A DNA stretch of 64,000 nucleotides from Marchantia polymorpha subsp. ruderalis (taxonomy: Eukaryota; Streptophyta; Marchantiopsida; Marchantiales; Marchantiaceae), in NCBI GenBank assembly GCA_037833965.1, contig AP031354.1, positions 722,001-786,000 of the forward strand. The letters are read 5' to 3'. A program made the position numbers and the translations under genes. Position 1 is the stretch's first letter. Each line of letters starts with the position of its first letter. This document shows positions 19,741 through 64,000 of the stretch, piece after piece. The notes below the pieces were generated by a model. That model was not told the origin of the DNA and made no database searches. It was given only the letters and a program-made list of their open reading frames with translations.

Positions 19741-20067
19741 CAGTGAGATAGAAGCAAGACGATGGATGCTTAATGAGTATGATTCAGCTATTTCCATCGA
19801 ACACTTACTGCAGCCCATAATAAATCACGCGTAATAAATGGTTGATAAGGTTTGGACAGGTAAGTTTATTCCACTGTGTCTGGTGACGTGAACTAAAACA
19901 CCCTATGATGCCGCAAACTATGTAATAAATGTAGTCGGCACACCTGATTTACCATATTTCGTTGAAAGGAAAGAATAATTTCATTTTACTATATTCTGAA
20001 GAGAGCTAACACATATGACATACTTTCCAACTCGAAGGTAAATGTATTGAGCTATAACTCCCCATTA

Positions 20068-20640
20068 GCTACTGGGAATGACGTGAAGATATACGATGGC
20101 ACTTTTAAGATACAGCAGATTTATTTCCACACCGGAACGAATGCTTGTCCTGGTCACTTCAAACCGAGGAATGAAACTCAGTGTAACTCCAGTTCAAGAT
20201 TTCTACAACCGGAAGATTGAAGTCCATAGTCCCGGGAGCACCACAGAATAAGCCCATTAAGCTACTGGGAATGACTTGAAGATATACGATGGTACTTTTT
20301 AGATACAGCAGATTTATTTCCACACCGGAACGCATGCTTGTCCTGGTCACCTCAAAACGAGGAATGCAACTCAGTGTAACTCCAGTTCAAGCTTTCTACA
20401 ACCGGAAGATTGAAGTCCATAGTCCCGGGAGCACCACAGAATAAGCCCATTAAGCTACTGGGAATGACTTGAAGATATACGATGGTACTTTTTAGATACA
20501 GCAGATTTATTTCCACACCGGAACGCATGCTTGTCCTGGTCACCTCAAAACGAGGAATGCAACTCAGTGTAACTCCAGTTCAAGCTTTCTACAACCGGAA
20601 GATTGAAGTCCATAGTCCCGGGAGCACCACAGAATAAGCA
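20068..20640. repeat. Three tandem copies of a 193-bp unit
   Basis: Units start at 20068, 20261 and 20454 with GCTACTGGGAATGAC. Copies 2 and 3 are almost identical; copy 1 has several substitutions. The array ends about 18 bp from the stop codon of the lectin gene, so on the minus strand it forms the start of that gene's 3' untranslated region. The period is not a multiple of three, and the array is not part of the lectin frame. Confidence 0.93.
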
Positions 20641-20657
20641 CATCATGCATCCCGTCC

Positions 20658-22387
20658 TCAAGCGGTAGGAGCTTGGGCTCCCGACACGGCAAGATAGACG
20701 CGAGAAGCGACGGAGTAGGACCAGACTTGGAGAACGCCGCTGGGCTCCAGGCGAGCGAATTGATCGGTGGTGACGGTTTCGGAGCCGTCGTAAGGAGGAG
20801 ACGAGGACGGGAACGGGTCGATGACCGACGTCGAGTTGGCTTCGGGCTGAGAGCACAGGGTCGGATCCTGGACGCTGGTCGAGGCGACGGTCGTGCCCGT
20901 CAGGACCACCACGCCGTCGGCCGCGCTGAAGAACGTGTCGTGATCGTAGAGGCACGTGTGCTGCGTGGCGTAGACGGTGTCGTTGGTGGGTATGACAGAC
21001 TTCCACCACGTAGGCGCGCTGGATGTGGTGCTGGTGATTGTCACTCCTGCCACCTCGGCGTTGAAGCGGTAGCTCCCCGTGGAGTAGTTGCTGCTGGACA
21101 CGGCCGACGCCAGCGAGCTCGGGTACAAGAGAGTCTGGCCTGGCAGCAGAGTGTCGGTGGGTTCTTTCCAGCTCTCCCACACTGTGGCGTTGAAGGTGTC
21201 GAGGAATTTCAAGTTTCCCTCCGCACCTAGCTCGACACCAAAATCGGTCTGTGAGACAAAATCGACGGTGAATTTGTCAGCGTCCTTTACAACAACACTA
21301 AAATAAGTAATTTCATTGAGCATAGCACGTATAGCAATCGAATCGAAATTTCAAGTGCAGCCAGACTTTATGTACAACTCGAAACTCCAATGTTCGGAGC
21401 AAAAGCTCGACTGATCGAGTCCGAGGAATTATTCACGCAGGTTCCAGCAGGAAGAGGCTCAAAACGCTTGGATTCGATGGACGTTCATTATATCAGTATT
21501 CCATGTACGAGCTGTTGGAGGCATGATCGTCTGTACGATATGCCCTGAATCCAGTTTCGACCTTGATGAGTATGACACCAGGTCAATATCCTCCTCATAT
21601 AATTGAGAAAGTAAAGATCGAGAGAGAGGGTTCAAGTACGGAAGATGCGTGAATACATGCGCCATTCCTCAACTTTAAGATGAAGTAAAGATATGTCTCG
21701 AGTTTGGGAACACACCAACATTTGTGTGCAGCATAGATATCCACGACAAAATTAATAGAAGTAAAATTACGAGCAAAACGAGAGTGTCAACCCGAGCTTC
21801 GACAGAGTTTTCATCTCGGTAAAGAATTTAGCAGCAAACGGGAAGGATGAAATCGACATTTTTCAGGAACTCGCGTCCCGATCCTTGTCAGCAACTGATG
21901 AGATACAAAGTATAGAAAGGAGCTGTGAACATACACTTGTGCCGGCGTAAACACCAGGGCTCTTCCAAACCAGAGTACCGTCTGCATCTCTCAGTGACAA
22001 AAAGACGCTTCCGCCGCCAATCTCCGTGGCGAACGTTGCGTTCTGGTGCACGGGGGTGTCTCTGTTGGGACTCCAGACGGGGATCCAGGCCTCGCTTACA
22101 GTGAAGGGTTTGATCACCAGGGCGAGGTAGAATGTAGCATCTGCACCGTACCCACTTTTCTGTCCGGTCGTACTCAAGAATTCCAGCGCGAACTGCTGTG
22201 TTCCTTCGATGAAGATAATTCTGGGAGTATTGCCATCTCGGGTCCGTACCTCAAGGCTAGCATCATTAGTCACTGTGAAAACTCCAGCAGTTGTCGGAAA
22301 GTAATCAGCGCATGCCGTTCCAGCAAAGAGTAAAAGTGCAATGGCACAGGCCAGTTGGCATGAGCTTGCCATCGAGGCGTAACGCAT
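20658..22387 (-). CDS. Bulb-type (mannose-binding) lectin domain protein, secreted
   Basis: Two exons: 22387-21935 and 21248-20658, joined by a GTATGT donor and a TCTCACAG acceptor in phase 0, giving about 347 residues. The N terminus has a signal peptide (second Met at 22372: MASSCQLACAIALLLFAGTACA). The lectin core follows: FYLALVIKPF, IPVWSPNRDTPV, DGTLVWKSPG, then GNLKFLDTFNATVWESW and PTDTLLPGQTL, the hallmark of S-locus/bulb-lectin domains. No kinase, PAN or transmembrane segment is visible after the domain, so this is a short secreted form like EP1-type glycoproteins, not a receptor kinase. Such proteins sit in the wall or apoplast and can bind mannose-type glycans; binding here is unproven. 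A decayed relative lies at 25749-26010. Confidence 0.82.
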
Positions 22388-46450: not shown

Positions 46451-48233
46451 ATGCAATAAGTCTCATGATTTTTTGCCTTGTTGTATGACTTGCCGTTGCT
46501 TCACTTTGTTTTTGTTATAGCACTTTTGGGCTACAAGTTTTCACCAAGATTAAACCATGCATGTGTAAATATGAACATAATTTTTTTTGTGAAATTCCCA
46601 AAGTGTTTGAATAACTTTTTTGATTTTCTTATCATTATTTTCTACCAAAAAAATATTATAATAAAAAAATTTGTTAATTGTATATACATCAATGTTGTAT
46701 ATATTTCAATTTTTTTATAAAAATTCAAAATTATTATCAGTAATAAATGATGAAATAAAAAATCAAAATTAAAAAGTTTAATCTTAATTGAATTTGTGAT
46801 GCTACTATTGGAATCTAAAATAAAATTTATTTCAATTGAGCATAAATTTAAAGACATAAGTCTCAATGATTATTATTAAAATATAACGGAAAGTATATGT
46901 AAAGATTAATTCCAACACATGTTTATTGTAAATGGTTTATTACACCATTTTCAATTTCACTTCATATTACATGCATATTTTTTAAGAATGAAATTTGGAA
47001 GATAATTTATAAAGAATTTATGTTTATATCATTTTTTCTTAGATAAAAATAAAGGATTCAAATTTTATAACTATACTTTACATTACTACAACACTTTAAA
47101 ATGAGACTATATTTTTTGAATTAATAGTTTTTTGGAGTAGAAAACTAAACACTTTTATCTATTGTAATATGAATTTATACCCTAATTTAATAAAATTAAA
47201 TTCCTTAAAGCATTTATCTAACTCATCGTGCAGCAATTCGATGTTTGAAATAAAAAAATTTTAATGATCAGTATTTCAGACTTGCATAAACTCTTGCATA
47301 ACTTAACTCTAACTTAGGGTTAGCCTAGATTTTATTCAGCTCTTATAAACTAAAGACTATTACATTGAATACAAAACAAAATTTGAATTCTTTCAATGGA
47401 CTTGTAGATTTCTATCCACCATGGAGAATAATATACAAAATTTGACAAAATTGAAGATGAGAAAAAAATATACAAATCAATTTATAGACGACTCTCAACT
47501 TTGATCACTATCACCAAGCATGGTTGTATCAGACAATCGTATACTGCGATACTTGAATTACCTAAACAACGGCATGTTCTTACGCCTAATATGGATGAGA
47601 TTTCGGTGCCTAAATTAATGTAGATGCTGCAACCAATGGGGAGGAGGTGTCTAGTACTTAATCATGTTAGAACTTTAACCCATATTTGACTCAAAATCGC
47701 ACTCTTGATTAATATATACACCAAATCTCACAAATCTTTTCACCACTTCTCATTGATCTTTTTTGAAAGAGAGTAAAATCGAGTACCTGCAAATTTTGCT
47801 GTCGTTCGCATTGATGACAAATATGTCCACACAATATTGTTAAAATTTCTTCCTTTATTTTCTTTGAAAATCGTATATTCTAATCTTTCTGAATTGCTGA
47901 AATGATGCGGTGTACAAGTGAAAATGTCGCGTTGACTATGTGCTACAATTGAACAATTGCTCGAACTAAATTCTTTTCTACAATGACAAAAATTTGTTCT
48001 TCTGCGTATATATAAAAACATGATGATAAATTTGGGTTGAAAGTTGTGATTCAAAATCTAAAATTGTTGAAGGTGATGGATGTGCAATGGCGGTTTTGCA
48101 TTACATTTCATCGGAAGTAAAAGGCAAATTTAAAACAAAAAGTGAGATTTTTGGTTCAAGCATAGCAATTTTACTTTGTAACGATAATATTGAACAACAT
48201 TTTTGTATCCAACATAGGAAACAATGGGCGGTG
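46451..48233. other. AT-rich DNA, no gene recognised
   Basis: Probably includes the degraded 5' part of the Copia remnant. 46500-47300 is extremely AT-rich. No motif was recognised. Confidence 0.45.
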
Positions 48234-48531
48234 TGTCATGTAGTTACGAGTCGGCTCACGCAGTTTAGACACTTACTATATTTAGACGTGAAGTTAGGGT
48301 TCGGGTCACGAGGGGTATAGAGTCGGGGACGGCTCGAAGAACGTTAAAGTTCGTTCGAGTCGAGCCTGGAAGCGTCGGGAGCGTAGAGCGACTTTCCCTT
48401 TTGCGTCGACCTAGATTCTCCGAGTGTGGAGTGGGTTGGGCTTGACTCATGTTTGTGACGGTGACGGTTTGTTGCCAGTAGGGTAATTGACCGACGGGAA
48501 TTCCAGTGGGGAATCTCCCGTCTATTTCACT
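48234..48531 (+). repeat. Terminal block B, left copy (LTR part)
   Basis: 298 bp, from TGTCATGTAGTTACG to CTATTTCACT, nearly identical to 60346-60640 apart from a few substitutions and a short indel near the GAACGTT motif. It lacks the 117-bp block A that accompanies the right copy. No primer-binding site is seen directly after it. Confidence 0.9.
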
Positions 48532-50027
48532 CGAAGAACTCTTGACGTTTTTGTGTGTAACCGTTTTACGTTCCGTTCTGCCTCTTTGTGTTTTCGTCGT
48601 GTGTTTCTCTCTTTTGTGGTTTGTTTATACCTTTGGGCAATTTCTGTATTTGAAAGTCTGAGGAAATTAGGGTTTTAAATCGAGAAATATGTGCAGAAAG
48701 ATTCTCAGATTTGATGTTCGGAAGTAGGGATTTTGAAGATTGAGTCGGAGTCTGAAAACTGAAGTTTCGGGATAGCATTCAATTTTTGTTCGTGTGGCGT
48801 CGAAGGGCAAGGTAGAGATTTGGGTTCAAATTCTGAACCGCTGGAAAGGGCTTTTTGACTCACTGGAATCAGTGACAGGAACACTGAAAAAAAAAATGTT
48901 GGATTTCGGTTGGAAATTTTCCACGAGAAGAGGGAAGAATCAGTCCGAAGCTTGATTTGGTCTTGTTCATTCGGTTCGCGGGAAGAGGCTGGACTGCTGT
49001 GCGGTGATTGAATCCTCTGAGAACTTGCAGTCAGTACACTCTGTTTGCCCGAAGATGGGAATCCCAAGAGTATGCGTTCGGGAAATTTCGTGAATTGACA
49101 AGAACACTCGAAGTGATTAAGATCCGACTGTACTGTTATTTCGAAAACGTGAGGCATCACTTCCGTGCGCACGCAGGGTTATCAATTGCATGACCCGCCA
49201 ATTCCAGCAGAGTCTACGGCCTGCTTCTTCGCAGCCTCGGGAGTCATCAAAGCAGCTGGCTGCAGCCGAAGCTCTCGAGGGCGCCGAGACTTTGGTGCTC
49301 TGCTTGACTGCGAGCTCGCTGCGTGCGGAGGAGGCATGCGGGGGCGAGCGAAGTTTCTGTGATCAATTCCTTGATCGATCTGTTCACTGTGAGCGGTGGT
49401 TGTCGTCGTCGTGGCCTCGTTGGGCATCTTGCTCAGTTGGACCTGCGTGGGAGAAGCATTAATTTTGCTTCGTATGGTGTGCGAGTCACACGCAGTCACC
49501 ATCCCTTCTTCTTTCTGCTGCCTTTGCCGCCGCTGCTGCTGACTGTGAACCGATCTCAAACCTTCCGGAGATATCTGCCATTCTCTTCCTGCGTTTGTTC
49601 TCAGACTTCTTGTTCTGGTCGACACTACATCTCGTTTCGTGGATTCAAGTTCTCTGAATGTAGCAGAATTACGAGCCGGATCTCGTTTGAAAGACCTCGT
49701 ATCTCATCGTGCCTTTTTCGTTTCCAGCCTACTCTGCCCACGGCTTGATCAGTTGTTGCTGTCTGTGTTGCTTTACACCCTTGTCCAAGCTATACACGAA
49801 TACAAGGCAGTCAAAGTGAACTCCGTTGAGTGACTCCCTTTGTGCATGTGTCTTCTTTGTATCTTCGTACTCTAGTCGCTGAGCGGGACAGAACGGCGTC
49901 AAGGCGTACTAGTCATCTCAGGACCGTGGTTTTATACGGAGGAGTTCGAAGGGTTCTAGGGCTTTATTACTTGTTCGACAGTGACACTTTACTTTAGAGT
50001 CGAAGCTCTGGTACGTGCAACTTACAT
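48532..50027. other. Long leader region of the gypsy unit, first part
   Basis: Non-coding-looking DNA with the flavour of a plant gene 5' leader (TTAGGG motifs, GC-rich 49180-49350). No frame can be assigned. Whether it is element leader or captured host DNA is open. Confidence 0.4.
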
Positions 50028-50611
50028 TTGGCGATTTGGAGAGAGGCAGAGGAGGAGGAGAGAACACTCCATGAGCTAAAAACCGAAGTAGAGGTCGAGA
50101 AGAAAGCTCTTACATTAGCCAGAGCGTGGGCGGAAGAGGAAGCGAAAGCAGCTAGAACACACGCCAAAGTACTAGAGGAGGCTAGAAAACGCTGGGAGGG
50201 CCAAGGAATTCAGGTACATGTAGATAAAGAACTTGATGAGGAAAATATTCCGGCTTTGCCTTGGCAGTACAGTGGTTCTAAGTCCTCGCTGAACAAATTT
50301 TTGCAACGAGCACCCGTTCAGGATTTTCTGGCAAGGGCTGGTGATCTGAAGTCTAGAGTCCTTGAGAGGTTTTTCCAGTTGTTAGAAGCAATTGGCCGGG
50401 CTTTTTCGAGTGCCCAGCGAGAGACAGCTGAGTCACTTCGGGGTGTGAGTACGAAAGTACATGCAGTACAGCAAAGACTGTCGCTGTCGTCTCTAAAACC
50501 GCACAGGACATGCAAGAAGCGACAAAGAACACATTCGGCGGTTTAAGTACGTCCATATCTGAAAATACAAAGAAGATGCTGATGGATGCCGGGGAGAAGC
50601 TCAAAAACTAG
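50028..50611 (+). pseudogene. 3'-terminal fragment of an SLH-domain (At5g23890-like) plastid protein gene
   Basis: The frame gives REAEEEERTLHELKTEVEVE, RAWAEEEAKAARTHAKVLEE and ARKRWEGQGIQVHVDKELDE. This is the conserved coiled segment near the C terminus of plant S-layer-homology proteins such as Arabidopsis At5g23890. After VHAVQQ the frame shifts by one base and continues as KTVAVVSKTAQDMQEA to a natural-looking end, GEKLKN, with a stop at 50611. The N-terminal SLH domains are absent. One frame shift and the truncation make it a pseudogene. It lies between the terminal repeats of the gypsy unit. Identification is by remembered family sequence. Confidence 0.65.
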
Positions 50612-52588
50612 CACCAAAGTTCAAGAGTTGATCGGAGCATCAAGCACCTATCGTATCATCTGGGATATGCATGGTGTTACTCGACCGTCATTCATATTAC
50701 AAGAAGTATGGAGGGTGCCCAATCAGCAGTGTAATGCTACGGATTAGAAGGGCCCATTACTGCTGGAGTAGTACAATTGAAGCATCCTTTTCCAAGACAG
50801 TTCGAATGTGCCCTGCGTATGGAGCTTAGGCGAGATGAAGGCTGATACATTGGTTAAAACATGGAGTAGGTTCTTTGTAGCATGATATCGTTGGTGCTTG
50901 CAGAGTCGGGAAAAGTGAGACGGGCATTCACACCTTTTTCTGTCTATCAGGTCAGTGTGTGGCTGCTCGGGATAGAGTGTCGTAATTACAGAGCCACTAT
51001 TGTCGGGGAATAGTCCCACCCGTCGTCATTACATTTGGCTATTGTAACCTAGCATTGAGGCAGGCAGGTCCACAAGTTTTTTTCGGATATTTGCGCACAG
51101 AAAGCTTTCAATCGAGATGAGAATATAAGAGATTCCTAGTATAGTATGTTGATGTACCCGGTTTTGAAATTTCAGGAATTTCAAAAAGAAAAACAAACAA
51201 GCAAACACATGATGTTGACAGAACCCATCGACCTAGATCTTAGCTTCTAGGTGATACACCACTTCATACGTTAGGTTATGTAAAAGAGAGGTTTGCTTAT
51301 TGTTATTACAAGCATGCAAACAGGTGGCGATTGTGTTGTGGAGAGATACGTGACTACCTGGTTGAACAGTAACTCAGAGAAATAGTTGTTTACAACTGCT
51401 ATTTTCGTTTATATTGTACTCTTATGTGTAGGGTAGTCTAAATCCTGATGACACTCTCTAGTATATTCTAGGGAAGGAAGAATATTAGCTAATTGGGTGT
51501 CCAACTTATGAAACATTGAATTTAGAAGAGTTTACAGGTCCAAAGGAGGGGGTACCTCTAGCAGTATAAAGTGTTACAGGTTGGACAAAGACATATGAAT
51601 ATTAGAGCTCATTAATTTTCTTTGCTAGAAGCTCAATCTGGATAACAGAGTGGTAGAGTTTGAGTTCAGACAGTCGCACCAATGATGCTAGTACATATGC
51701 AGCCGACCAGGAAAGTAATGTGAAAAGCACTCACAGTTAGATAGAGTATATATTTCTAGGATCTAAGTATCATAGTGAAATATAGTATATATTTCCAGTA
51801 TTTGAAAATATGTACTCAAAATTGCTGGCTGAATGCAAAGAGTATGTATCCATTAGGCATGTTCACTAAACAGCGATATTCTAGTAGAGTTAAGCTGTGA
51901 GAAAAAAGAGAAAAAAAAAAAAAAAAAAAAAAGGAAGAGTTTAGGGGTTCAGAGTTATAAGAACCTCATCTGAAGAGGCCGGAAATTTGCATCCGGTCTC
52001 ACTTACTATAGTCTTCAGTTTAAGGTAGAGTGTGACCGTGAAGATTCTCTACGCGACTTGGTGAACGTGAGGGCATCATAGGCACTGGAGGCCCACGTAG
52101 ATGGAGGGCAATGGAGATCGAATCGGGATCGCGAAGCAATGCGATGTCCCGTGTGTGTTGTCTTGTTTTGTGCTGTGTTTCCTTTAGACTGGAGAGTCGT
52201 TGCTAGCTGGTTGCTTGTGTTTGGATCCTCTCCAGTCTTGCTTCCTGGTGCGCGCCCGAGTAGGGGTGACGCTGATTTCCGGAGTAGTTTTACTCCTGTG
52301 TGCTGGCGATAGAGGGCTGGACTTGATCACCGGCCGGTCTATCTATGTTTCTCTCACGGTGAGACTGGAGTGATGACCAGTAGACCGTGAGAGTCTTCTT
52401 GCTGTGATGACAGGTTAGGTTGCCCATACCCCTTAGCTAGTAGGGCTAGAGTAGCTCAGTGCAGCACGGCATTAGGGGCGGATTGGGTTATTGGGTGGAG
52501 ATCTGGCAGTGGTGCGAGTTGAGGTCTCGTCATCACGGAGCAGTCTAGTGGTCCTATTGAGGACCGCGGGGGATTTACGCGGAGTGGG
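50612..52588. other. Leader region of the gypsy unit, second part
   Basis: Probably 3' flank of the SLH fragment (50612 to about 51000), then unassigned DNA with a 21-base A run at 51913-51933, then the element's own gag leader from roughly 52000. No coding signal. Confidence 0.4.
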
Positions 52589-53560
52589 TTGAGGTATCGG
52601 CTACCTTCACCTATTTCGCCAGTTGTTGCGGAGCAGGACCAGAGTGTTGTAGACACAGAGTCTTTGGTGGTGATATCGTCTAGTATTCCCATCCCATTGA
52701 TTTGGGACATGGACGGGATGTACGGGGCCGCGAAGGGCCCTCGACGTTACTCTGGTGCAGTGGGCACCATCGAGCTTGATGATTTTATTCAGGAGTTCGA
52801 CACGTGGTGTGATATGCAGTTTTTGCGTAACCCCACGTTGTTTACACCCTTCTTTGCATGGAAGGGGTTATTCTAGCATTTGGAGGGGCCTCCCATGGAC
52901 GATTATCATGAGTTTGGGAGAGAGTATGCTGCAGAGATTGATGCATGGAGACGGCATTGGTCTCCGAACTACTCATCCATTACCCAGGGTGGTGTGGGTA
53001 CTAGTGGAGGTGCGAGTATCGGCATCAGTGGAGGTGCGAGTAGTAGCATCAGCGAGGGTACCAGTGGAGCAGTTGGCGCAACTGGTACTAGTACCAGCAG
53101 CGGTACTGTTAGCATTGCCGGTGGCAGCACGAGGGGAGATGCTAGTGGCGTACCTTCGTTTAGCCCCATTCCTGAGTTCTTCCAGAGATTGAGGAAGAAT
53201 TATCAGGGGGTGAAAACGGAGAAGTTGAGGAGCCTCCAGGAGTTTGAGCGGAAGACTCGTGAGAGTCTTCGTGAGGCATACACTCGTATGCGACGGCTCA
53301 TCTCAGTTACTCACGGTGTGACTGAGGCACAGGCTGTCCAATACTGGTATCGGATCCTAGACAGAGAGTTGCGGAGGAGAGTGCGTGATGCTACTCTCAT
53401 GAGCGACTCATCACCCACATTAGCCCATGTGTTTGCTCTTTCTGAGAAGATTGAGCTTAACATGCTGGAGGAGAGGGTGGTGACGTCTACATTTGCGAGA
53501 GACACGACCACTAACTTGCGTATTCCACATAGCCCAGCACAGTCTGTGGATGGGTGGCTA
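52589..53560 (+). pseudogene. gag, capsid part
   Basis: The frame includes LDDFIQEFDTWCDMQFLRNP, then an in-frame TAG (52874-52876), then LEGPPMDDYHEFGREYAAEI, a Ser/Gly-rich linker, and the retrotransposon-gag helix region (FQRLRKNYQGVKTEKLRSLQ, EFERKTRESLREAYTRMRRL). The first ATG in frame is at 52709. Gag forms the particle that packages the element RNA. The stop most simply comes from CAG to TAG. The 3' end is cut by an insert of about 400 bp. Confidence 0.8.
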
Positions 53561-53951
53561 AATTTCGCTATAGAATTTTGATATCGATGAGGTGTCCAAT
53601 CTTATATCAAGAGAGCAGCATTACATAGATTTATTACTCCCCTCTAGGAAACACGGGGCAATGCGCAGTTGGAGCAGCTTGAAAATCTAAAATTCCTTCT
53701 GTTGAAGTGTTACCCATGGCCTTGCCTTCGGCTCGTCACCACTAAAGGCCCTTAGAGGCCCTATTTCCGCGGGCCTTCCCTGCCGGGCATAGAGCTTACC
53801 TAAACCCCGTGTAAATGGGTGGGAACCACAGCATGCTCTAAAAGCGTAGTTGAGGGTCTCGCCCCATAAGTGGGAGTCGTGGAGGTCATACACGACATCC
53901 TTCAGGTCACAGAGAGCCTAGTGCGCGGCCACCACTGCCTTCATTTTCGGG
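53561..53951. other. Foreign insert within gag, organelle-like
   Basis: Between the capsid and nucleocapsid parts of gag lies about 400 bp of different character, including a GC-rich core (53690-53940) with a 68-codon open frame on the minus strand. Its texture recalls plant mitochondrial DNA, so a nuclear copy of organellar DNA is possible. I cannot name the source. The insert also shifts the gag frame. Confidence 0.4.
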
Positions 53952-54452
53952 CCAGCCACAGGGCCGTCATGTTGGACATGCGGAGGTAGCCATATGAGGA
54001 AGGATTGTCCCCAGGAGCGAGAGGGACAAACTCCACATGCTAGGCCACAGCCGGCACAGGTGACCTGTGATCATTGTCATCGACCGGGTCACCCTCGAGA
54101 GCGTTGCTTTGACCTTCATCCTGATTTGAGATCTGGAGGTAGAGGTCGTGGAGGTGATGCCCCACGAGGCCGAGGTGTTCGAGGTGGTAGAGGTGGTAGA
54201 GGTACTGGGGCCATTGAGCGTACTGCAGCGAGTGCTACTTCCGCCACAGAGAGCGCTATGGCTGCTTGGATTGAGCAGTTGGAGCAGAGGCTTGCTGCTA
54301 TGGCTGGTCTGGGGGCGAGCACTTCCACATCTTACGAGGGAGAGGATTTCTCCTATTTGGCCAGTGCAGCACAGGTTGAGGCATCAGTTGCAGTGACCCG
54401 AGGTGGTGCTCGCACTTCAGAGCCACGTGGTGCGACTGTGGAGTTGGACCCT
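53952..54452 (+). CDS. gag, nucleocapsid part with two zinc knuckles and RGG box
   Basis: The first knuckle CWTCGGSHMRKDC (53970-54008) is CX2CX3HX4C, one residue short of the usual spacing. The second, CDHCHRPGHPRERC (54066-54107), is canonical CX2CX4HX4C. An RGG-rich stretch (54130-54215) follows, then an acidic end. It binds the element's RNA. The frame ends with TAG at 54453 but continues open in the same frame into protease. Confidence 0.85.
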
Positions 54453-54455
54453 TAG
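54453..54455 (+). other. Amber stop between gag and protease, same frame
   Basis: CCT-TAG-AGG-GGT-GAG. The frame stays open on both sides. A gag-pol amber with purine-rich 3' context is reminiscent of the gammaretrovirus arrangement. A CAG to TAG mutation is the simpler alternative. Confidence 0.6.
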
Positions 54456-56900
54456 AGGGGTGAGGGTGGACGTCAGTCTAGACTTCCCCAGTACTTTTTG
54501 TTGTCAGAGGTGGGTAGCAGTTCATCTATGAGACCTGCACCGCCTAATGACACTAGAGTGAGAACTGAGGTTCTTACATCATCTGTTGTGAACGCAGATG
54601 TGGCATCTAGTGCAGTGATGCGGATGGCCACTTCAGTCTTGCGATCTCCATTGTTTTCAGCCACGGAGTTGATAGACTCTGGTATTGATTTGGCTCGAGT
54701 ATTTCGGGTGGCGGCCACGTCGTGTGAGCGTGGGAGAGTCGCTACTACGAGTGCCAAGATACGTGAGGATACAGTTGAGGACCCATCCTCAAAGTCTACA
54801 TTGTTCGAGGAGACGACTTGGCAGGCCGCAGCGGCGAGGATGGAGTCCTTACCAGCTCGCCCAGCCATTGACCGCGAGAGTATTGTTCCTGATGTATGTA
54901 TGGTGGACAACCGAAGTGGTCTATTTCGGTTAGTGAGTTCTACTAGACAGGTGTATGTTCCAGCCAGAGTTTTGTTGGATTCTGGTGCACAGCCCTTGAT
55001 GTTGGGCAAGGCTGCATGCATTAGTTTGGGCATTCGGAGGTCAGAGTTGGAACCTTGCCCATTCCAGATCCAGACATCCCTTGGTGGCGCCAGCAATAGG
55101 TCTTACTTTATGACCAGGGAGAGCGTAGCGGTGCAGTTGAGGCATGATCACCCTCATGATAGCTCACAGTTTGGAGTTCGTGCTGTGGTTACATCAGCAG
55201 AGTCATATGATGTGCTTGTTGGTGGAGTGGTGTTATACCCAATGGGCTTTCGGATGGACTATTGGACGGAGACTGCCGCATATCGTCCTGGTTGGCAGTC
55301 CGGAGATGGACGTCTGAGCGAGCTGCCAGTGAGATCTATTTCTCGGGATCGACCTCTTGGATCTTCATCAGCGGTCTTGGCATCTGTTGCGGGTTTTAGC
55401 GGAGTGCTTACCTGGCCCGATGACTTGTTGGAGGGGAACATGTCTGCCGACGATACCTCAGTCTACGAGGATGTGGAGGAGGTTGTGAGTTTCACAGCGG
55501 CGGTGACTTCACCCTTAGATGTTCCACTGTGGAGTTCGTGCCAGGCACTACAGTTGGAAGCTGATAGGTTGGTAAAAAAGGCTTGGAGTGAAGCCTCTTT
55601 ACCAGCAGAGCCAGAGAGGGCTTCAGCTGATCGGCTAGTTGGTGGTTCTAGCGCATTGTCTCCATTGGTTACTACACCTATTGCATGGGAGTATTCCTCA
55701 GAGGGCGTTTGTTTGCTGGATCTTTTTGGTGGGATCAGCACCGGTTTGGCTGCGGTGTTGCAGTCAGGTATTCTCGTGCGGAGATACTTGTATGTGGAGA
55801 AGGACGAGACTGCACGTCGAGTCTCTTCACGACATGTTGCACCGTTGATGCGGCGTTTTCCTTTGTTGTTGCCGCGATCAGCTGTCCGAGGATTCCAGAA
55901 GGCGTTGCCTTCAGACATTTCGTTGCTGGGGGCGCCAGACCTTGACCGCGTTGGCCATATTGATATGGTGATTGCGGGATGGCCATGTCAAGGACACATA
56001 CGCGCTGGACATGGGACAGGGTTGCGTGATCCCAGATCTCGGATGTTTTGGGAGATGATGCGAGTGTTACGTCATCTCCAAGTGCAGCAGACACGTTCTC
56101 CAGCATACATTCTGGAGAACGTACCATTGTTGGGTGACACTCTGGCCCAGTTGATGGCGAGTGTCCATCAAGTCCGAGCATGGATTGGATCAGCAGTACT
56201 GTTGGATGCTGCGAGGGTTGGATCACGGGCGCATCGTGCACGTTTGTGGTGGACCAACCTTTTGCCACGTGAGATATTGCGTCATGCCTATGATTCGGTG
56301 AAGCGTGATACTACACTCACCGTTGACAGTATCTTGGATGTTTCCCGTCACTCTCAAGTAGTGAGAGTTGCTGACAGGTCACCAATGGCGTTGGTGAACC
56401 GCGTAGGTCAGCCTCGGATGGCTTTACCTACATTTGTCAGTTATCCGGCATCACATGCATATCGTGATGGGGGACCTGGACTACTATGGGACAGTACCCT
56501 ACATCAGTTGGTGGAGCCCAATGCTGATGAGAGAGAGCGTGTGATGGGGTTTCTTACTGGTGTGACCGCGGCTTCTTCAGTTTCAGAGGTGTCGCGTCGT
56601 CAGGTTTTGGATCAGGCTATGGACCTGAACTGCTTGACGTGGATTGTGAGCTTGGGTTTGGCCGAGCAACGCCGTTTGCGCGCAGATTTGGTGGTTGTAA
56701 CACCACTTATTAGCTCATTGCCTACCGGGACGGTAGTGGCAATGGCTGGGGGCGACAGGCGAGATATCCGTCATCCTTGGAGTTTATGGAACGTGACGAA
56801 AGGACTTGCCAGAGTTGCAGCCCATGCAGTTGGAGAGGATTCTCACGTGGAGGTGGCTACGAAGGAGGGTACGGAGAACCCTTCTTTGCAGTGTGTAGCG
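54456..56900 (+). CDS. pol, N-terminal part: aspartic protease + DNMT3/DRM-like cytosine-5 DNA methyltransferase
   Basis: Residue numbers count from 54498, the first possible (non-ATG) initiator; the frame continues from gag. The protease has ARVLLDSGAQPLMLG (Asp161-Ser-Gly). From residue 402 a C5-methyltransferase domain begins. Motif I: VCLLDLFGGISTGLAAVL (SAM binding). Motif IV: IAGWPCQGHI with catalytic Cys497. Motif VI: ENV (Glu540). Motif VIII: GSRAHRARLWWTN (575-587). Then ADERERVMGF and RRQVLDQAM as motif IX/X equivalents. FGGISTG and SRAHRARLWW resemble DNMT3/DRM enzymes more than MET1 or CMT, but the motif order is linear, not circularly permuted as in plant DRM. There is no stop in 800 codons and all key residues are present. 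It could methylate the element's own DNA; activity is unproven. Confidence 0.88.
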
Positions 56901-56909
56901 TAGCAACCA
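56901..56909 (+). promoter_or_regulatory. Candidate programmed readthrough site UAG-CAA-CCA
   Basis: The stop ending the protease-DNMT frame is TAG followed by CAA CCA, which fits the type I readthrough consensus UAG-CAR-YYA known from tobamoviruses. The downstream RT frame is the same frame. The match may be chance, since the same codon could come from CAG to TAG. Confidence 0.5.
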
Positions 56910-59900
56910 TTGACAGTGTCGCCTCCCTCTAGTGTGCCTATGGAGGAGGAATGGGAGCCATTGATTGGTTCCCAGATCACAGGAGGAGAGAGGCGACGAT
57001 GGACACAATTCCTACGAGACTATAGGAGTTGTTTTGCTTTAAGTATGAAGGAGTTGGGTGCGTTGATTGGACCCGGTATACGGATAGAATTGGCTAGTGA
57101 TACGCCAATCTTCCGTCGTCCTTATCGATACAGTGAGATGGAGAGAGATTTGATTCGGAGTATGACGTTGGACCTACTGGAGGCTGGACTAGTGGAGTTA
57201 TCGCATGGTGAGTATGCGTCAGCCACTGTCATGCCGGTGAAGAAGGATGTACATGGCAACTACACGGATAGGCGCATGTGTGGAGACTACCGTCCTATCA
57301 ATCGGCAGACGAAGTCCGATAAGTATGTCATGCCTACACCTGAGGAGATCTTTGATGTGGTGGGACATGCGAGGATTTTTAGTACTTTGTATCTTCGGGC
57401 AGGATACCATCAGTTGCCAATTCGGGAGGAGGACAAAACCAAGACAGCGTTTTGGGGCGTCAACTCCCACGGCAAGGATTGTTTGTATCAGTGGCGATTC
57501 TTACCCTTTGGGTTGAAGAATGCACTTGCCGAGTTTCAGAGGGTTATGGACAGAATCCTGGCGGGACTGGATTTTGTCAGATGTTACATTGATGATATCT
57601 TGGTGTTTAGTGACACTGTGGAGCAACACCAGATACACTTGCAGATTGTGTTTGAGCGATTGAGGGCTCATGGTTTGAGGTTACATCCTGGGAAGTGTAA
57701 GTTCTTCCAGGAGAAGGTTGAGTACTTGGGTCATGTGATATACCTAGGTGGTTTAGGAGTTCAGCAAGCAAAGGTGGAGGCTATTGCACGCATCCCTCGT
57801 CCCACGGATGTGAGTAGAGTTCGTGCATTTATGGGTTTAGCGAACTACTACCGGAGGTATGTGAAGGGGTTCAGTGCTATAGCCAAGCCTTTGAACCAGT
57901 TGCTGAAGTCAGATCAGGAGTGGCAATGGGGAGATGAGCAGGAGAGAGCTTTTGTTGAGCTGAAAGCCAGGTTGGTGGCCGCTCCCATCTTGAGGAGACC
58001 TATCAGAGGTCGTCCATACCAATTGCACACTGATTGGAGTATGTTGGGACTTGGAGCGGTGTTGACGCAGCGTGATGATGAGGGCAAGGAGTTTGTGGTT
58101 GCGTACGCTAGCCGTTCGAACAATGCAGCGGAGTCGCGGTATAGTTCGTACGAGGGAGAGTGCTTGGCAGCGGTGTGGGCTGTGGCGCACTTCAGGTGTT
58201 ACTTGTTTGGTACGCAGTTAACCCTTGTTATTGATCATCAACCGCTCAAGTGGTTGATGAAGTCCGACAAGCTTACAGGGAAGCTTGCACGGTGGGCTTT
58301 CATCTTACAGGAATACGACTTTCAGGTAGTGCATAGACCTGGAGTTGCGAACCTAGATGCCGATGGTTTGAGTCGAAACCCATGCACTAGCCAGGAGGAT
58401 GACACTGGAGCTAGATGGCATGGTGAGGTTGACGAGGAGATGGTGTCTGGTTGGCATGCATCTGCCTTCATGTGTTGGTTACGTGGGAACTCCAGCAGAG
58501 AGGATCATCTGACATCTTACTCTAGTCAGAGAGTAGATGGTCGATCTTCAGATCCTGAGGTTGAGGATGGTGGTGTGGATCAGCGTGATGTGCACGATGA
58601 TGCATTGGTGTTGGAGTTCCTACAGACCAGCATGGTGCCAGGCACAGTGGGTGCCAAGGAGCGAGATCGTGTTCTCCAACGAGCCAAGAGGTACCGATTG
58701 GAGGGATCACATGTTCTCCAAGTGTGGGAGGACGGTAGGGTACGAGTAGTACCACATCCAGCCCAGAGAGCACGCATTGTGAGGCATGCTCATGAGGAGT
58801 TGGGACATTTTGGAGTGAAGCGTACATACAGCTTACTCCTTGGTCAGTATTGGTGGCGTGGTATGCATACTCAGGTACAGCAGTTGGTATCACGTTGCAT
58901 GGTTTGTGATCAAGTGAGGGCATCATTCAATGCCCCGACACCAGTGTTACATCCATTACCCATCATGGGGTTGGGTTACCGTTGGAGTTTGGACTTTGCT
59001 GGACCACTACCTTTGACTGTACGGCATCATCGGTATGTGTTGGTGATGGTGGAGCATTTCTCCAAGTGGATTGAGTTGGTGGCATTACCTGACAAGGCAA
59101 GTGAGGGAGTAGCATATGCTTTTCTTGACAGAGTGCTTAGTCACTATGGTGCACCAGCTGAGGTGTTGACCGATCAGGGAACGGAGTTTCAGGGTGAGTT
59201 TCAGGTCTTGTGCGACAAGGCACTGATTGATCATCGGACCACGTCGCGAGATCATCCAGAGGCGGATGGTTTAGTTGAACGTGTTGTACAGACGGTGAAG
59301 AGGGCGTTGCGCAAGTATGGCCTGCAGAAAGGTCATCTTGGGTACTGGGATATCCAGTTACCGTGGTTGGCGATGGGATATCGGTTCAGTCGGCATGCAT
59401 CCTTGGCTTCCTTCTCACCATATTTTCTATTGTACGGCCGAGATCCAGACTTGCCAACATCGATTCGTCGTGAGTCTAGCGAGGTGGTGAACCTTGATGA
59501 CCCGAATATGTGGGTGAGAGTATGTTCTCAACGTGCAGAGCTCTTTCGGAGAATTATGCCTGCAGCGTTTGAGAATCTTGCGATTGCTCAACATAGAGAT
59601 ACGTTGCGGTATGCAATCATTCGGGGAGGAGGTTATCGACCATCAATTCGTAGATTCCATGTGGGAGACTACGTCTATCTACAGCAGACTGCACCGACAA
59701 CATTGGATGTGACGGCGGGACGCACCATCTTGCGGGTGCGGGAGGTGTTACCTTCTGGAGTTCTCCTGTTGGAGGGTTGTGACGGCGTTGTTTGGAAGGA
59801 TCATGTGCGCAATTGTGCGCCATGCCACCTCCCAAACGTAGATGGCATTATGGGTCCAAGCTTAGCGGTAGTACGTGCTGGCTTGAGGTGCATGCTGTGT

Positions 59901-60026
59901 GGGTCAGCTGGTCAGGCGGCCCGTATGTTGATGTGTGATAGGTGTTCTAGGGGATGGCACATGTTGTGCCTGACTCCGCCTATCTATGTTATTCCGGTAG
60001 GATCAAGTACTAGTACTCCCGGTGGA
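56904..60026 (+). CDS. pol, C-terminal part: reverse transcriptase, RNase H, integrase, PHD finger
   Basis: Residue numbers count from 56910. RT: FSTLYLRAGYHQ with Tyr161 where the motif A catalytic Asp normally stands, FLPFGLKNALAEFQ, and the YIDD box (226-229). RNase H: LGAVLTQRDDEGKEF, SSYEGECLAAVWAV, DADGLSRNP. Integrase: zinc HHCC (HAHEELGHFG...CMVCDQ), then D-D-E in WSLDFAGP, LTDQGTEF and ADGLVERVVQTVK. The C terminus (994-1020) carries six of eight PHD-finger zinc ligands: CMLC, CDRC and H1017/C1020. The other two fall just after the TGA that ends this frame. Chromoviral elements carry a chromodomain at this position, so the PHD finger may serve the same targeting role; that is inference. 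The RT change implies loss of polymerase activity in this copy. Confidence 0.92.
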
Positions 60027-60056
60027 TGATGGGTTTGTCCTCGATGTACTTCATAG
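60027..60056 (+). pseudogene. End of the PHD finger beyond an in-frame TGA
   Basis: TGA (60027-60029) is followed in frame by WVCPRC, two more residues and a TAG. W-x-C-P-x-C is the signature last zinc-ligand pair of a PHD finger. The TGA therefore interrupts the domain; CGA to TGA would explain it. Confidence 0.8.
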
Positions 60057-60204
60057 GGGTAGATGACTTGATCTTCACATGTTATGAATTGCAGATAGGC
60101 GACTAACGATGGGGCGACATAGCACCCGGCCTACTGGTTCGCGCACCCACGAAGGTGTATAGCATGTAGTTGTAGATAGGGCTACCTGGGAGTCAGAGGG
60201 ACCT

Positions 60205-60227
60205 GACCGCCAGCTAGGGGGGCGAGT
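60205..60227 (+). other. Polypurine tract before the 3' repeats
   Basis: AGGGGGGCGAG directly precedes the TGTGACATTT that starts block A at 60228. This is the expected place and composition for the plus-strand primer of an LTR element. Confidence 0.6.
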
Positions 60228-60344
60228 TGTGACATTTGAGTGTGTACTCTCTCGCGCCTTATATGTGTGTATGTGTGTGCGTATGTGTATGTGAGTAGCA
60301 TGTCAGCGATGTAGAGTGTATGGCGATATGTATTCGCACGACAG
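60228..60344 (+). repeat. Block A, first copy
   Basis: 117 bp, TGTGACATTT...CGCACGACAG, with a TG-rich microsatellite-like middle. One base differs from the second copy at 60641-60757. It starts TG and its end contains CA. Confidence 0.93.
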
Positions 60345-60345
60345 C

Positions 60346-60640
60346 TGTCATGTAGTTACGAGTCGGCTCACGCAGTTTAGACACTTACTATATTTAGACG
60401 TGAAGTTAGGGTTCGGGTCACGAGGGGTATACAGTCGAGGACGGCTCGAAGAACGTTAGTTCTTCGAGTCGAGCCTGGAAGCGTCGGGAGCGTAGAGCGA
60501 CTTTCCCTTTTGCGTCGACCTAGATTCTCCGAGTGTGGAGTGGGTTGGGCTTGACTCATGTTTGTGACGGTGACGGTTTGTTGCTAGTAGGGTAATTGAC
60601 CGACGGGAATTTCAGTGGGGAATCTCCCGTCTATTTCACT
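60346..60640 (+). repeat. Terminal block B, right copy (LTR part)
   Basis: 295 bp matching 48234-48531. It lies between the two copies of block A, so the right end of the element reads A-B-A'. Confidence 0.92.
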
Positions 60641-60757
60641 TGTGACATTTGAGTGTGTACTCTCTCGCGCCTTATATGTGTGTATGTGTGTGCGTATGTG
60701 TATGTGAGTAGCATGTCAGTGATGTAGAGTGTATGGCGATATGTATTCGCACGACAG
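60641..60757 (+). repeat. Block A, second copy
   Basis: 117 bp, one substitution from the copy at 60228. B plus this copy (60346-60756) would form a 411-bp LTR from TGTCATG to CGACA. Immediately after it comes GTGTATCAAAGC, ten of twelve bases like a tRNA-Met primer-binding site. Confidence 0.93.
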
Positions 60758-60760
60758 GTG

Positions 60761-62939
60761 TATCAAAGCTTAGAACTATCTTCAAATCGTATTTCATTTT
60801 TCAAGAATGGATTAATTTCATTTAAAAATTCCTTGAAGTCCATTTTTTGTCTTATTTGAAAGATGAAAGAGATTTCATATATAAAATGAACGATTGATTG
60901 TGGATATCATTGTCAAAAAATATGAGGTTCAATCCTGAAAATCAAGAAAAAAGTGATGTAGAAGATGAAGTAAAATGATAGCATCTTTTTGGTTGTATGG
61001 GTGAAAATAATGTCCAACTAGTTCAACGTCAACATGCAGCAACCAAGTCAAAAGAACGCGCATTATTATTGTGTTGAATCTAAGGATATCGTTATAGAAT
61101 ATTTTTACGAAGTGATAATTATCAAGACAAAAACAACGTTGTTTCACATGGTCTTCTGTTACGTGTCTTACGATATATCATTTTGTATGACATCCAAACT
61201 TATCTATGACACATATGAAGTTTTGGACAATCTTGCTTTACGTTCATGTTCTTGTCACAAAATTAGTAACTTTGTTTGGGTAATTTCCACTGCCAATCTA
61301 CTAGAAAATTGCTAACCTTTTTTGACGTTTGTGGACATTTTCATTAGCACATGACTTGACGACACATCAAAGCATTTCATTTCTTGATATATGCTTCTGA
61401 ATCTTCATTCGCAACTATCATTCAATTATTAACTTGCATGATTGTGCAATTGCTATGTTTGATCGTCACATATGTGATGTGATGTTATGTTCACGATGAT
61501 GAGCAAGTTTTTTATTGTACTCTATCTATATTGGACAAATTATCTTCTTGGTTTGACGACTAACATAATCAATATGACTAGACAAATTATTGGGATTGCT
61601 ACTCGTCTTGCCGACATGATGCACAAGGAGTATATTTTTATTCAAATTTGATGTGAAGTGCATCAACTAGATCTTATTATGGAGAAGATAATGAACAATG
61701 TCATCAAAGAACGATGATTTTCAGCAATGACAAGATTTAATACTCACCTGACTCGGCAGCAGAATTTGATCGCGGAAATGCAAACTACATGTACTCATAT
61801 TGTTAATCGTGGACTTTTGACAGAAAAAATCATCACTTGGTTCAAAATCCATCAAACACAATTATTCGTTCATATCGAGTCAAAGCAGCCAGCTTCCACT
61901 TCAATTCGACTCTGATGGATTGCATTTTTTTCTATGCATCATTTCACTACTCAAGCAACAGTCGTTTTTTGTGATATTCAAGTATTGTATACATTTGTAT
62001 TTTAACAGCAAAATGTTTTGTATAACCATGTTGCAACTTTCATGGCCAAAGTTGGATTGATTGCATCGCTCAATAGAGAAACAATTCCGAATATTGACTT
62101 ATAGACTCACATCATAGTCAGTCATTATGCTTTGTTCAATGTCTAAGAATTTTTCATTGGTCTGGCTTTTTGGGTTAAAATTTTATGGAACTAAGTCATT
62201 GAAAGTGATCTAAACAATTTTCAACACGTTATCTCTCTTGTTTACGACATTGCCTACTATGAGAAATTCATGAAATTTGTGCTTATCAAGATCCAAACAA
62301 CAAAACTATGACTGATTTTAAACCTATTTCTCTAGTGTTATTACATGAATTCATCAAGCTATCCAAAGCAGATTTAATCAGAAAGATTCTACAACATATT
62401 TTTTGATTGAGGCATTGTTATTCATCTTATCATATCGATATCATTATTGATCAGCATAAATATTTTATCCATACTCATAGATGTGAACCAATGATTAAAA
62501 GCATCTTAGATTCGCATTCCAAACATTTAAGTTTCAAGGATGCTTAGTAGTTATTTGATGCTCGATTTCTAAATCTCAATGGAATATTGCTATGTAGTTG
62601 TAACGTTTTTTCTTGAAACAAATACGGTAAAGTTTGATTTTTTAATTTTGTGTTGGTATAAAGATTTGTTTCACAAAAAATTATCAAACTTTGGAATATA
62701 AAAAATCATGTACACAAAACAATTTTTGTTCATAGAACAAATTAAACATTAAAAAATGTTTAATAAAAAATTTGTATTAAAAATTACCTAAATAAATTGT
62801 TTTGAATAGATCAAAATAATCTAAATTAACATTTTAGTGAACTAAATTAATCTAGTTCAACTTTTTTTGGAGATTCAATTAATCTAAATTAATTTTTTTA
62901 GTATACTAAATTAAACATGTTTAGGCGAGTGACGGCCTA
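60761..62939. other. AT-rich DNA, no gene recognised
   Basis: Short frames (for example 61034-61315 + and 61727-61915 +) show no recognisable domain. 62580-62900 is extremely AT-rich. It may be decayed transposon DNA. Confidence 0.45.
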
Positions 62940-63134
62940 CCACTGTCACCCATTGTGCTGTGACATCTCCGGGAGCAAAGAGTGTGAGACCAACTGGACT
63001 GTCCCATCCCACAAGAGTGCGAAGAGGTTGATCGCCACTGTCACCCATTGTGCTGTGACATCTCCAGGAGCAAGGAGTGTGAGACCAACTGGACTGTCCC
63101 ATCCCACAAGAGTGCGAAGAGGTTGATCGCCACG
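62940..63134. repeat. Two tandem copies of a 95-bp unit
   Basis: Units start at 62940 and 63035 with CCACTGTCACCCATTGTGCTG. They differ at only a few positions. The surrounding 62920-63300 is GC-richer than its neighbours. Function is unknown. Confidence 0.92.
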
Positions 63135-64000
63135 AGCACATCCGTCGTGATCGTTCGAAATTCATATTCATAAATGCGGATTTGTAGCGCGCAGCGTTAT
63201 TTAACCGGGCTGGCAAGTTCGCGTCTGGTGTGTGAAACGTCACCGCAGGGCACACCAGCCCGAGCGACTGACCGACATGCACATCAATGCAGAGACTTTT
63301 CCATTCGCTGGTTGCAGATCTTAGCAAAATATTTGTATATATACTAGTAACATATTCAGGGGAGTCTCTCCTTTCCACTGAATATTCGACCTTGGATGCG
63401 CTATAGGCTATAGCTGGACAAAAAGTAATACGAAAAGTAATGTTTGCACTGTAACTTATTCTTAAGTTCATAACTAAACTATGAATTTTTCTTCATAGAT
63501 AAAACTCTATGAAGAAACAACAATTGTTGATACTAGTTTGCTACAATCCTGACAACTTCTAATCCATGATTATGTTTCAAAAGAGATGAATATTCATAGC
63601 ACTTGATGAGAAGACTATTAACAACCAAGACCTTGAATTATAGAAGTATGTAGATATGTCTCAATTTAGCTATTACATGTAATATTGAATATTGCTTGCA
63701 GAAGGCTGTGATATTGAAAGTCATGCGGGTCATTGCATTAAGCTTACGTAACATAATATTTGAAAAATAATATAATATGTAGATAGTGCTCTACATAAAA
63801 AGCATATACTAACGGATAACAAAATCATAAAACATCATCAGGGCAGATCAAGGGAAATGTGCCAAAAAATATCATGCTGAGAAAGATACATCTGAGAACT
63901 CTCATGCAACATGTACAGAGATGATACGGGATAGAGACGGTATGGTGCGTAACCTGGCCCATTTTAAGTTGTGAAAGTTTCTTCGTCTTGTTTTAGTTAG
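63135..64000. other. Intergenic DNA to the window end
   Basis: No coding frame or RNA gene recognised. 63136-63300 is GC-richer, the remainder AT-rich. Confidence 0.45.

Follow-up and report, generated by a model that had tools for sequence, protein, structure and literature searches.

The question raised by this locus is whether a retrotransposon of the liverwort Marchantia polymorpha subsp. ruderalis encodes a DNA cytosine methyltransferase of its own, or whether an insertion has damaged a host gene for such an enzyme. We analysed a window of 64,000 nucleotides (G000:C5:722001-786000) from a 241-Mb genome in nine contigs, eight of them large and one of approximately 5.6 Mb; plain coordinates below are those of the window. 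A first-pass annotation had proposed a Gypsy element with a captured C5-methyltransferase between protease and reverse transcriptase (RT), which would extend this element type from algae to land-plant DNA, and both proposals are borne out by the domains, by many linked copies and by the liverwort host. Namely, positions 48234-60756 are a single insertion, a member of a multi-copy Ty3/Gypsy family (Table 1) and, judging by its sequence, the window copy is a damaged Ty3/Gypsy-like retrotransposon encoding a DNMT3-type enzyme in a Gag-PR-DNMT polyprotein. In particular, its gag is broken, the motif-A Asp of its RT is replaced, its PHD finger is truncated and the self-primer sequence in repeat A1 is changed.

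Table 1. Features of the insertion and its borders, in window coordinates.
Feature	Positions	Strand	Remarks
5' target-site duplication GGTG	48230..48233	.	direct reading
Repeat A1	48234..48529	+	TGTCATG at start, TATTTCA at end
Putative primer binding site (PBS) CTCGAAGAACT	48530..48540	+	reverse complement of AGTTCTTCGAG within A
Hypervariable leader	48541..51930	+	borders approximate; sequence mosaic, mostly unrelated from copy to copy
Captured host segment	49252..49924	+	matches G000:C8:16044531-16045348 minus a 145-bp GT-AG intron
Captured host segment	50038..51143	+	matches G000:C8:138134-139537 minus a 298-bp GT-AG intron
gag region, broken	52709..54455	+	start set by comparison with P0002
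Insertion of ~310 bp within gag	53546..53855	.	missing from other copies compared
Retropepsin-like protease (PR)	54960..55410	+	approximate, by eye; DSG at 54978-54986
DNMT3-type C5-methyltransferase domain	55704..56700	+	FGG, PCQ, ENV, SRAHRAR, motifs IX-X
In-frame stop TAG-CAA-CCA, putative readthrough site	56901..56909	+	DNMT/RT boundary
Reverse transcriptase	57264..57740	+	motif-A Asp replaced
RNase H	57927..58316	+	Pfam
Integrase (IN)	58758..59258	+	H2C2 zinc finger and rve (DDE) core; Pfam
C-terminal PHD finger, truncated	59889..60026	+	complete in L034
Polypurine tract (PPT) AGGGGGGCGAG	60216..60226	+
Repeat B1	60227..60343	+
GC dinucleotide, B1/A2 joint	60344..60345	+	ACGACA-GC-TGTCATG
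Repeat A2	60346..60638	+
One variable nucleotide, A2/B2 joint	60639..60639	+
Repeat B2	60640..60756	+	terminal sequence GCACGACA
3' target-site duplication GGTG	60757..60760	.	direct reading

The internal order is gag, PR, DNMT, TAG, RT, RNase H, integrase and PHD, with PR, RT, RNase H and the rve integrase placed as expected of Ty3/Gypsy elements. The Pfam hits of gag to Retrotrans_gag and a zinc finger are weak and lie below the cut-off, while PR, which gave no Pfam hit, is identified via its DSG motif and position. In most long copies an open Gag-PR-DNMT frame of approximately 1361 amino acids is followed, in the same frame, by RT-IN-PHD of approximately 1042 amino acids, the joint being marked by TAGCAACCA (TAG-CAA-CCA) in 11 of 11 copies, including the divergent subfamily, and at 27 of the 30 best-scoring loci. 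Protease, DNMT and RT do share one frame, as first annotated, but this frame is not continuous, as the conserved in-frame UAG splits Gag-PR-DNMT from RT. The readthrough motif of TMV consists of UAG followed by CARYYA, and UAG CAA CCA matches this UAG-CARYYA consensus; by this resemblance, readthrough at the site is putative. Since the UAG lies downstream of DNMT, the enzyme falls on the Gag side and is probably made at the Gag level. An open frame of 1348-1365 amino acids, stop-free across the match, is found at 26 of the 131 DNMT places scored. Among the ten long copies fetched, L037/L038, L045/L046 and L047/L048 have additional stops or shifts; L033/L034 has Asn in RT motif A, and the second frame of the divergent L049/L050 ends early, without a PHD hit.

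What kind of methyltransferase is this? Its motifs run in linear order in a domain that is intronless within the Gypsy polyprotein, and the catalytic Pro-Cys (Cys codon at 55986-55988), ENV and AHR motifs characteristic of DNMT3 are all present. By both sequence and fold, its best match is DNMT3A, and it is nearer to DNMT3 than to DRM, DNMT2 or bacterial enzymes, the groups covered by direct comparison; DNMT1 and CMT were absent among the matches listed. Motif IV reads PCQ in the element and in a DNMT3-like gene of the host, as against PCN in DNMT3A; the element enzyme is set apart from DNMT3A and DNMT3B by its PCQG motif IV and by its fusion to Gag-PR, and it is approximately 17 residues longer than DNMT3A between motifs I and IV. 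The first-pass description of DNMT3/DRM-like motifs in linear order holds as regards DNMT3 and linearity. Kinship to DRM, on the other hand, was rejected: the two host DRM genes, L072 and L073, have rearranged motifs, with VI-X before I-IV, whereas the element enzyme is linear.

Could the methyltransferase simply be a host DNMT3 gene broken by a Gypsy insertion, or pseudogenised beside one? The family to which the enzyme belongs is the sole point in favour of this. Against it, the identical fusion occurs in many copies, the DNMT3-like gene of the host, with at least two exons, lies elsewhere in the genome, as do the two DRM genes, and the element DNMTs form a separate group with a support of 100/100. 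With a recurrent DNMT-RT fusion and a separate host gene at hand, we reject this possibility as next to inconceivable. The search of the host genome for relatives, proposed at the outset, returned many linked DNMT-RT copies, and the concern that no other copy would link the two can be laid to rest. Namely, among the 131 DNMT places scored, out of 607 candidates, at least 95 have RT at the expected fixed spacing and at least 99 have RT within 5 kb; conversely, at least 99 of 150 RT places have a same-strand DNMT within 5 kb, or at least 111 if extra DNMT places are counted. As both sets of places are subsets of their candidates (150 of 3285 for RT), these linkage counts are lower bounds. The 30 best-scoring loci, a sample of best matches biased toward intact copies, have RT in 27 cases (25 in the DNMT frame) and PR in 27. 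In this sample, pN/pS amounts to 0.276 for DNMT (29 of 30 copies, one with four stops being left out), to 0.254 for RT (25 of 30) and to 0.58 for the protease (26 of 30), the last value being probably disturbed by indels and therefore set aside. What is more, four comparisons of DNMT with that of the divergent L050 give Ka/Ks values of 0.13-0.15, and PCQ, ENV and SRAHRAR are retained in 29 of the 30 copies, L023 having PCK. Judged by these substitution ratios, DNMT is under purifying selection.

The arrangement of the repeats raises a second question, namely how such an element inserts itself. A stands at the 5' end and B-A-B at the 3' end, giving the order A-internal-B-A-B. Since identical complete LTRs are not found at the two ends, we label the element Gypsy-like with circularly permuted repeats rather than a standard LTR element. 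The PBS CTCGAAGAACT follows TTTCA at all 24 A1 ends read (the window, 8 long copies and 15 short loci, the latter among 20 fetched of 40 A places listed). A also contains a TATA-like box and the self-primer sequence, the exact 11-mer complement AGTTCTTCGAG being present at 22 of the 24, with L045 and the window A1 deviating. LTR elements of the Tf1 type are self-primed, an 11-nt RNA segment being complementary to the PBS beside U5. The liverwort element shares this 11-nt self-complementarity, with the PBS complementary to an upstream RNA segment at the sequence level, but its LTR termini differ from its integration termini. Namely, the PPT adjoins B1 in all 10 copies in which this flank could be located and, together with the PBS at A1, this implies, by the standard logic of reverse transcription, cDNA LTRs of the order B-A, while the ends joined to the target are TGTC (the start of A) and GACA (the end of B).

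Both ends were read in 11 copies, and in 10 of them the 4-bp target duplications match perfectly, namely in the window, L031/32, L033/34, L035/36, L037/38, L039/40, L047/48, L054/60, L057/68 and the solo L062, and L043/44 has one mismatch. One end was not found in L041/42, L045/46 and L049/50, and no match to A or B was found in the divergent L049/L050; L053 and L055, which lie 21 kb apart and whose flanks would mismatch if they formed one element, were not counted as a pair. The two nucleotides at the B1/A2 joint are GC in 11, CC in 1 and AC in 1 of the 13 joints read, while the A2/B2 joint reads G in 8, A in 1, C in 1 and AG in 1 of 11 and is deleted in L032. Across 8 copies, A1 and A2 are 99.3% identical within copies and 95.9% between copies, and the two therefore seem to be products of one replication round.

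Retroviral integrases remove two nucleotides at the ends of DNA. By analogy with Tf1, the RNA of the liverwort element would start at AGTTCTTCGAG in A and prime its own reverse transcription; the two ends of the resulting cDNA with B-A LTRs would then be linked to each other in a two-LTR circle, which the integrase apparently opens inside the LTR, at the palindromic ACGACA-GC-TGTCATG, dropping the two middle nucleotides. A two-LTR circle opened at this site would insert as A-internal-B-A-B, and the A2/B2 joint would be the former circle joint, variable as end joining would make it. That said, one could also imagine an ordinary LTR element with LTRs of the form A-B, whose 5' LTR has lost B by a fixed deletion, whose B1 is a chance duplication and which integrates as linear cDNA. 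It is true that the A2-B2 ends are TG...CA and that L062 is a solo A-B, with a partly deleted joint and CATT flanks. However, recombination between A1 and A2 also yields the solo form, the arrangement repeats in independent insertions with different target duplications, PPT and PBS imply B-A LTRs, and the A1 and A2 of one copy hardly differ; we thus consider an ordinary A-B element improbable. PAT/DIRS elements have split direct repeats in the very order A-internal-B-A-B, which the liverwort element shares, but it combines this order with a DDE integrase and a 4-bp target duplication. Is it then a DIRS-type element with a tyrosine recombinase? The A-coding-B-A-B arrangement is indeed the one given for DIRS in the accessible text of PMC5890265, yet the integrase that Pfam finds in the ORFs scanned is of the rve DDE type, a tyrosine recombinase being absent from them, and DIRS membership, to which the 4-bp target duplications are also foreign, was rejected as extremely improbable.

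Two copies differ from the order that a two-LTR circle would produce. L037/L038 is A-internal-B with a target duplication, just what a one-LTR circle would give, although recombination between B1 and B2 after insertion could equally account for it. In L041/L042, for which no A1 turned up, A2 passes into the PBS where B2 would be expected, and the 5' side adjoins an oppositely oriented element; its B-A-PBS order points to a tandem or nested arrangement, outside the circle model's own predictions.

The leader between PBS and gag is the most variable part of the element. Eight of the nine leaders compared are dissimilar for the greater part of their length, some segments being common to several, while those of L033 and L045 are alike throughout. 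Genome searches with six leaders showed that those of the window, L037, L031 and L043 hold segments 96-99% identical to places matching that segment alone; for L047 and L033, most matches were weaker, short or related to the element. The leader of L037 contains a gene from C6:26.13 Mb in antisense (introns CT...AC on the plus strand) and without its three introns. Altogether, the window copy and L037 contain three captured host genes from which five introns are missing in total, and these pieces of the element thus derive from spliced RNA; a host origin of other leader segments is likely. In L043 the leader consists of four consecutive segments, which overlap by 5-14 nt and are 98-99% identical to sequences on C2, on C6 and at two places on C8. 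Such mosaics look like the product of RT switching templates onto host mRNAs, and the antisense piece in L037 makes simple read-through transduction insufficient. The ORFs of the captured genes, of 336 and 172 amino acids, matched no Pfam family above the cut-off. The source places of one L043 segment (C8:126746-127600) and of the second window segment lie approximately 10.5 kb apart. Two candidate traces of RNA were discarded: a 277-bp gap in the L031 leader as an intron, for it has no GT-AG borders and another copy keeps the stretch, and the poly(A) at 51910-51932 as a captured tail, for A-tracts occur near this boundary in several copies, some of them aligned. The 277-bp stretch absent from L031 is retained in a related leader at G000:C2:30887380-30887690 (L078).

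What would a retrotransposon gain from a methyltransferase? For a conserved enzyme that is fused to Gag and has intact active-site motifs, the most likely role would be methylation of the element's own DNA. Translation would mostly stop at the UAG, giving Gag-PR-DNMT, and occasional readthrough would add RT-RNaseH-IN-PHD; the packaged DNMT would then methylate the cDNA, the circle or the new insertion of the element, tagging this DNA as silent and host-like. We consider it somewhat more probable than not that a DNMT made at the Gag level via the UAG, self-priming, integration from a circle and methylation of the element's own DNA jointly explain the observations. CpG transitions account for 1 of 17 differences between A1 and A2 (8 copies) and, in the DNMT segment, where CpG makes up 11% of the bases, for 25% of the differences between pairs (those with more than 120 differences excluded), and the latter excess is no more than a mild sign of methylation. 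Alternatively, the enzyme might silence new insertions as a regulator of copy number, with no role in particles, so that the family persists with little harm. Purifying selection between subfamilies and the co-existence of damaged and open copies would suit such a regulator, which sequence alone cannot separate from self-methylation and which we regard as somewhat unlikely. A further alternative is that DNMT, either within Gag-PR-DNMT or cleaved from it, targets host chromatin, be it host genes or rival elements, and that the family gains by disturbing host silencing. The open Gag-PR-DNMT frames kept at 26 places speak for it, and the C-terminal PHD finger could bring a complex to chromatin, but fusion to Gag favours a function within particles, and the methylome of Klebsormidium nitens is land-plant-like despite such elements (PMC5890265, accessible text); action on host chromatin is, in our view, unlikely. 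A point against methylation of the element's own DNA is that no activity was seen in yeast for the KnitGypsy DNMT in isolation, a result termed inconclusive by its authors (PMC5890265).

A broader proposal, to which we would give even chances, is a Gypsy-like class in which a DDE integrase inserts circular cDNA, RT joins host mRNAs and DNMT3 is tied to the circular lifestyle. Opening of the palindromic GACA-GC-TGTC within the LTR would give a split repeat like that of DIRS, no tyrosine recombinase being needed, reverse transcription would join pieces of host mRNA between PBS and gag into copy-specific mosaics, and DNMT3 may methylate or protect the nuclear circle before integration. Such methylation or protection could explain why captured methyltransferases recur with the DIRS repeat layout, as in SymbioDIRS-Dnmt3, KnitGypsy-Dnmt3 and DIRS with Dam-like enzymes, SymbioLINE-Dnmt, a LINE, being the exception (all as given in the accessible text of PMC5890265).

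The element type itself is already known, from the available part of the report by de Mendoza et al. 2018 (PMC5890265), as KnitGypsy-Dnmt3, a DNMT-bearing Gypsy of K. nitens. According to that text, the two have in common the Gypsy domains, purifying selection, an intronless and unrearranged DNMT3 in Pol and, by the legend of Fig. 4, the combination of Gypsy domains with a DIRS-like repeat order. The element described here is unlike KnitGypsy-Dnmt3, as described there, in its liverwort host, 131 scored DNMT places, C-terminal PHD, separation by UAG, self-primer PBS, ends defined by target duplications and mosaic leader; the strings 'phd', 'circular', 'split' and 'captur' are absent from the main text seen, figures aside. 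In the same source, SymbioDIRS-Dnmt3 resembles our element in its DNMT3 in Pol and its A-coding-B-A-B repeats, and differs in its tyrosine recombinase, DIRS class and dinoflagellate host. An orchid Gypsy with an m6A demethylase likewise carries a captured nucleic-acid modification enzyme, but there it is an RNA demethylase in an orchid and here a DNMT in a liverwort (PMC9289625, consulted in part).

Among the matches listed, relatives come from Marchantia, Calypogeia, Sphagnum, Closterium, Haematococcus, Chlamydomonas eustigma and many environmental contigs, the top protein matches of DNMT being from M. polymorpha, at 94%; K. nitens does not occur by name among the DNMT matches listed, one listing giving the best 120 of 365. 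This spread over bryophytes, Closterium, chlorophytes and environmental contigs does not support the first-pass view that such elements are very rare. In the chlorophyte and environmental Gypsy polyproteins P0038, P0039, P0054, P0089 and P0130, DNMT lies between RNase H and integrase, and a PHD is often present at the C-terminus. Titles and abstract openings of the literature, with incomplete coverage, yielded no DNMT-bearing Gypsy for bryophytes or chlorophytes and no circle-type integration by a DNMT-bearing Gypsy, and the incompletely covered literature that was searched yielded no UAG, PHD or host mosaic of DNMT-Gypsy elements either. Circle-type integration with split repeats and the mosaic leader of host sequence seem to be new features.

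Our results add the lineage of Marchantia, a model liverwort, to the hosts of retrotransposons with a self-encoded DNMT3, so that the reason why an element would carry a silencing enzyme can now be tested in a tractable plant. The element also offers an example of split repeats arising with a DDE integrase, and its leaders a natural archive of captured host mRNA. Counts of DNMT genes in the Marchantia annotation include element proteins and call for caution. P0001-P0012 and others, annotated as M. polymorpha 'genes' (e.g. Mp_8g17980), are proteins of the DNMT-Gypsy element.

Outside the insertion, the window contains an intronless ORF of 402 amino acids (278-1486), which, by eye, resembles a serine/alanine-glyoxylate aminotransferase, with SRL at its end. 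A 193-bp unit is repeated three times in tandem at 20061-20643, with the units 97% alike, beside minus-strand ORFs, one of them (20658-21323) being lectin-like by eye. Finally, a 95-bp unit is repeated twice in tandem at 62940-63133, inside a minus-strand ORF of 186 amino acids (62911-63471).
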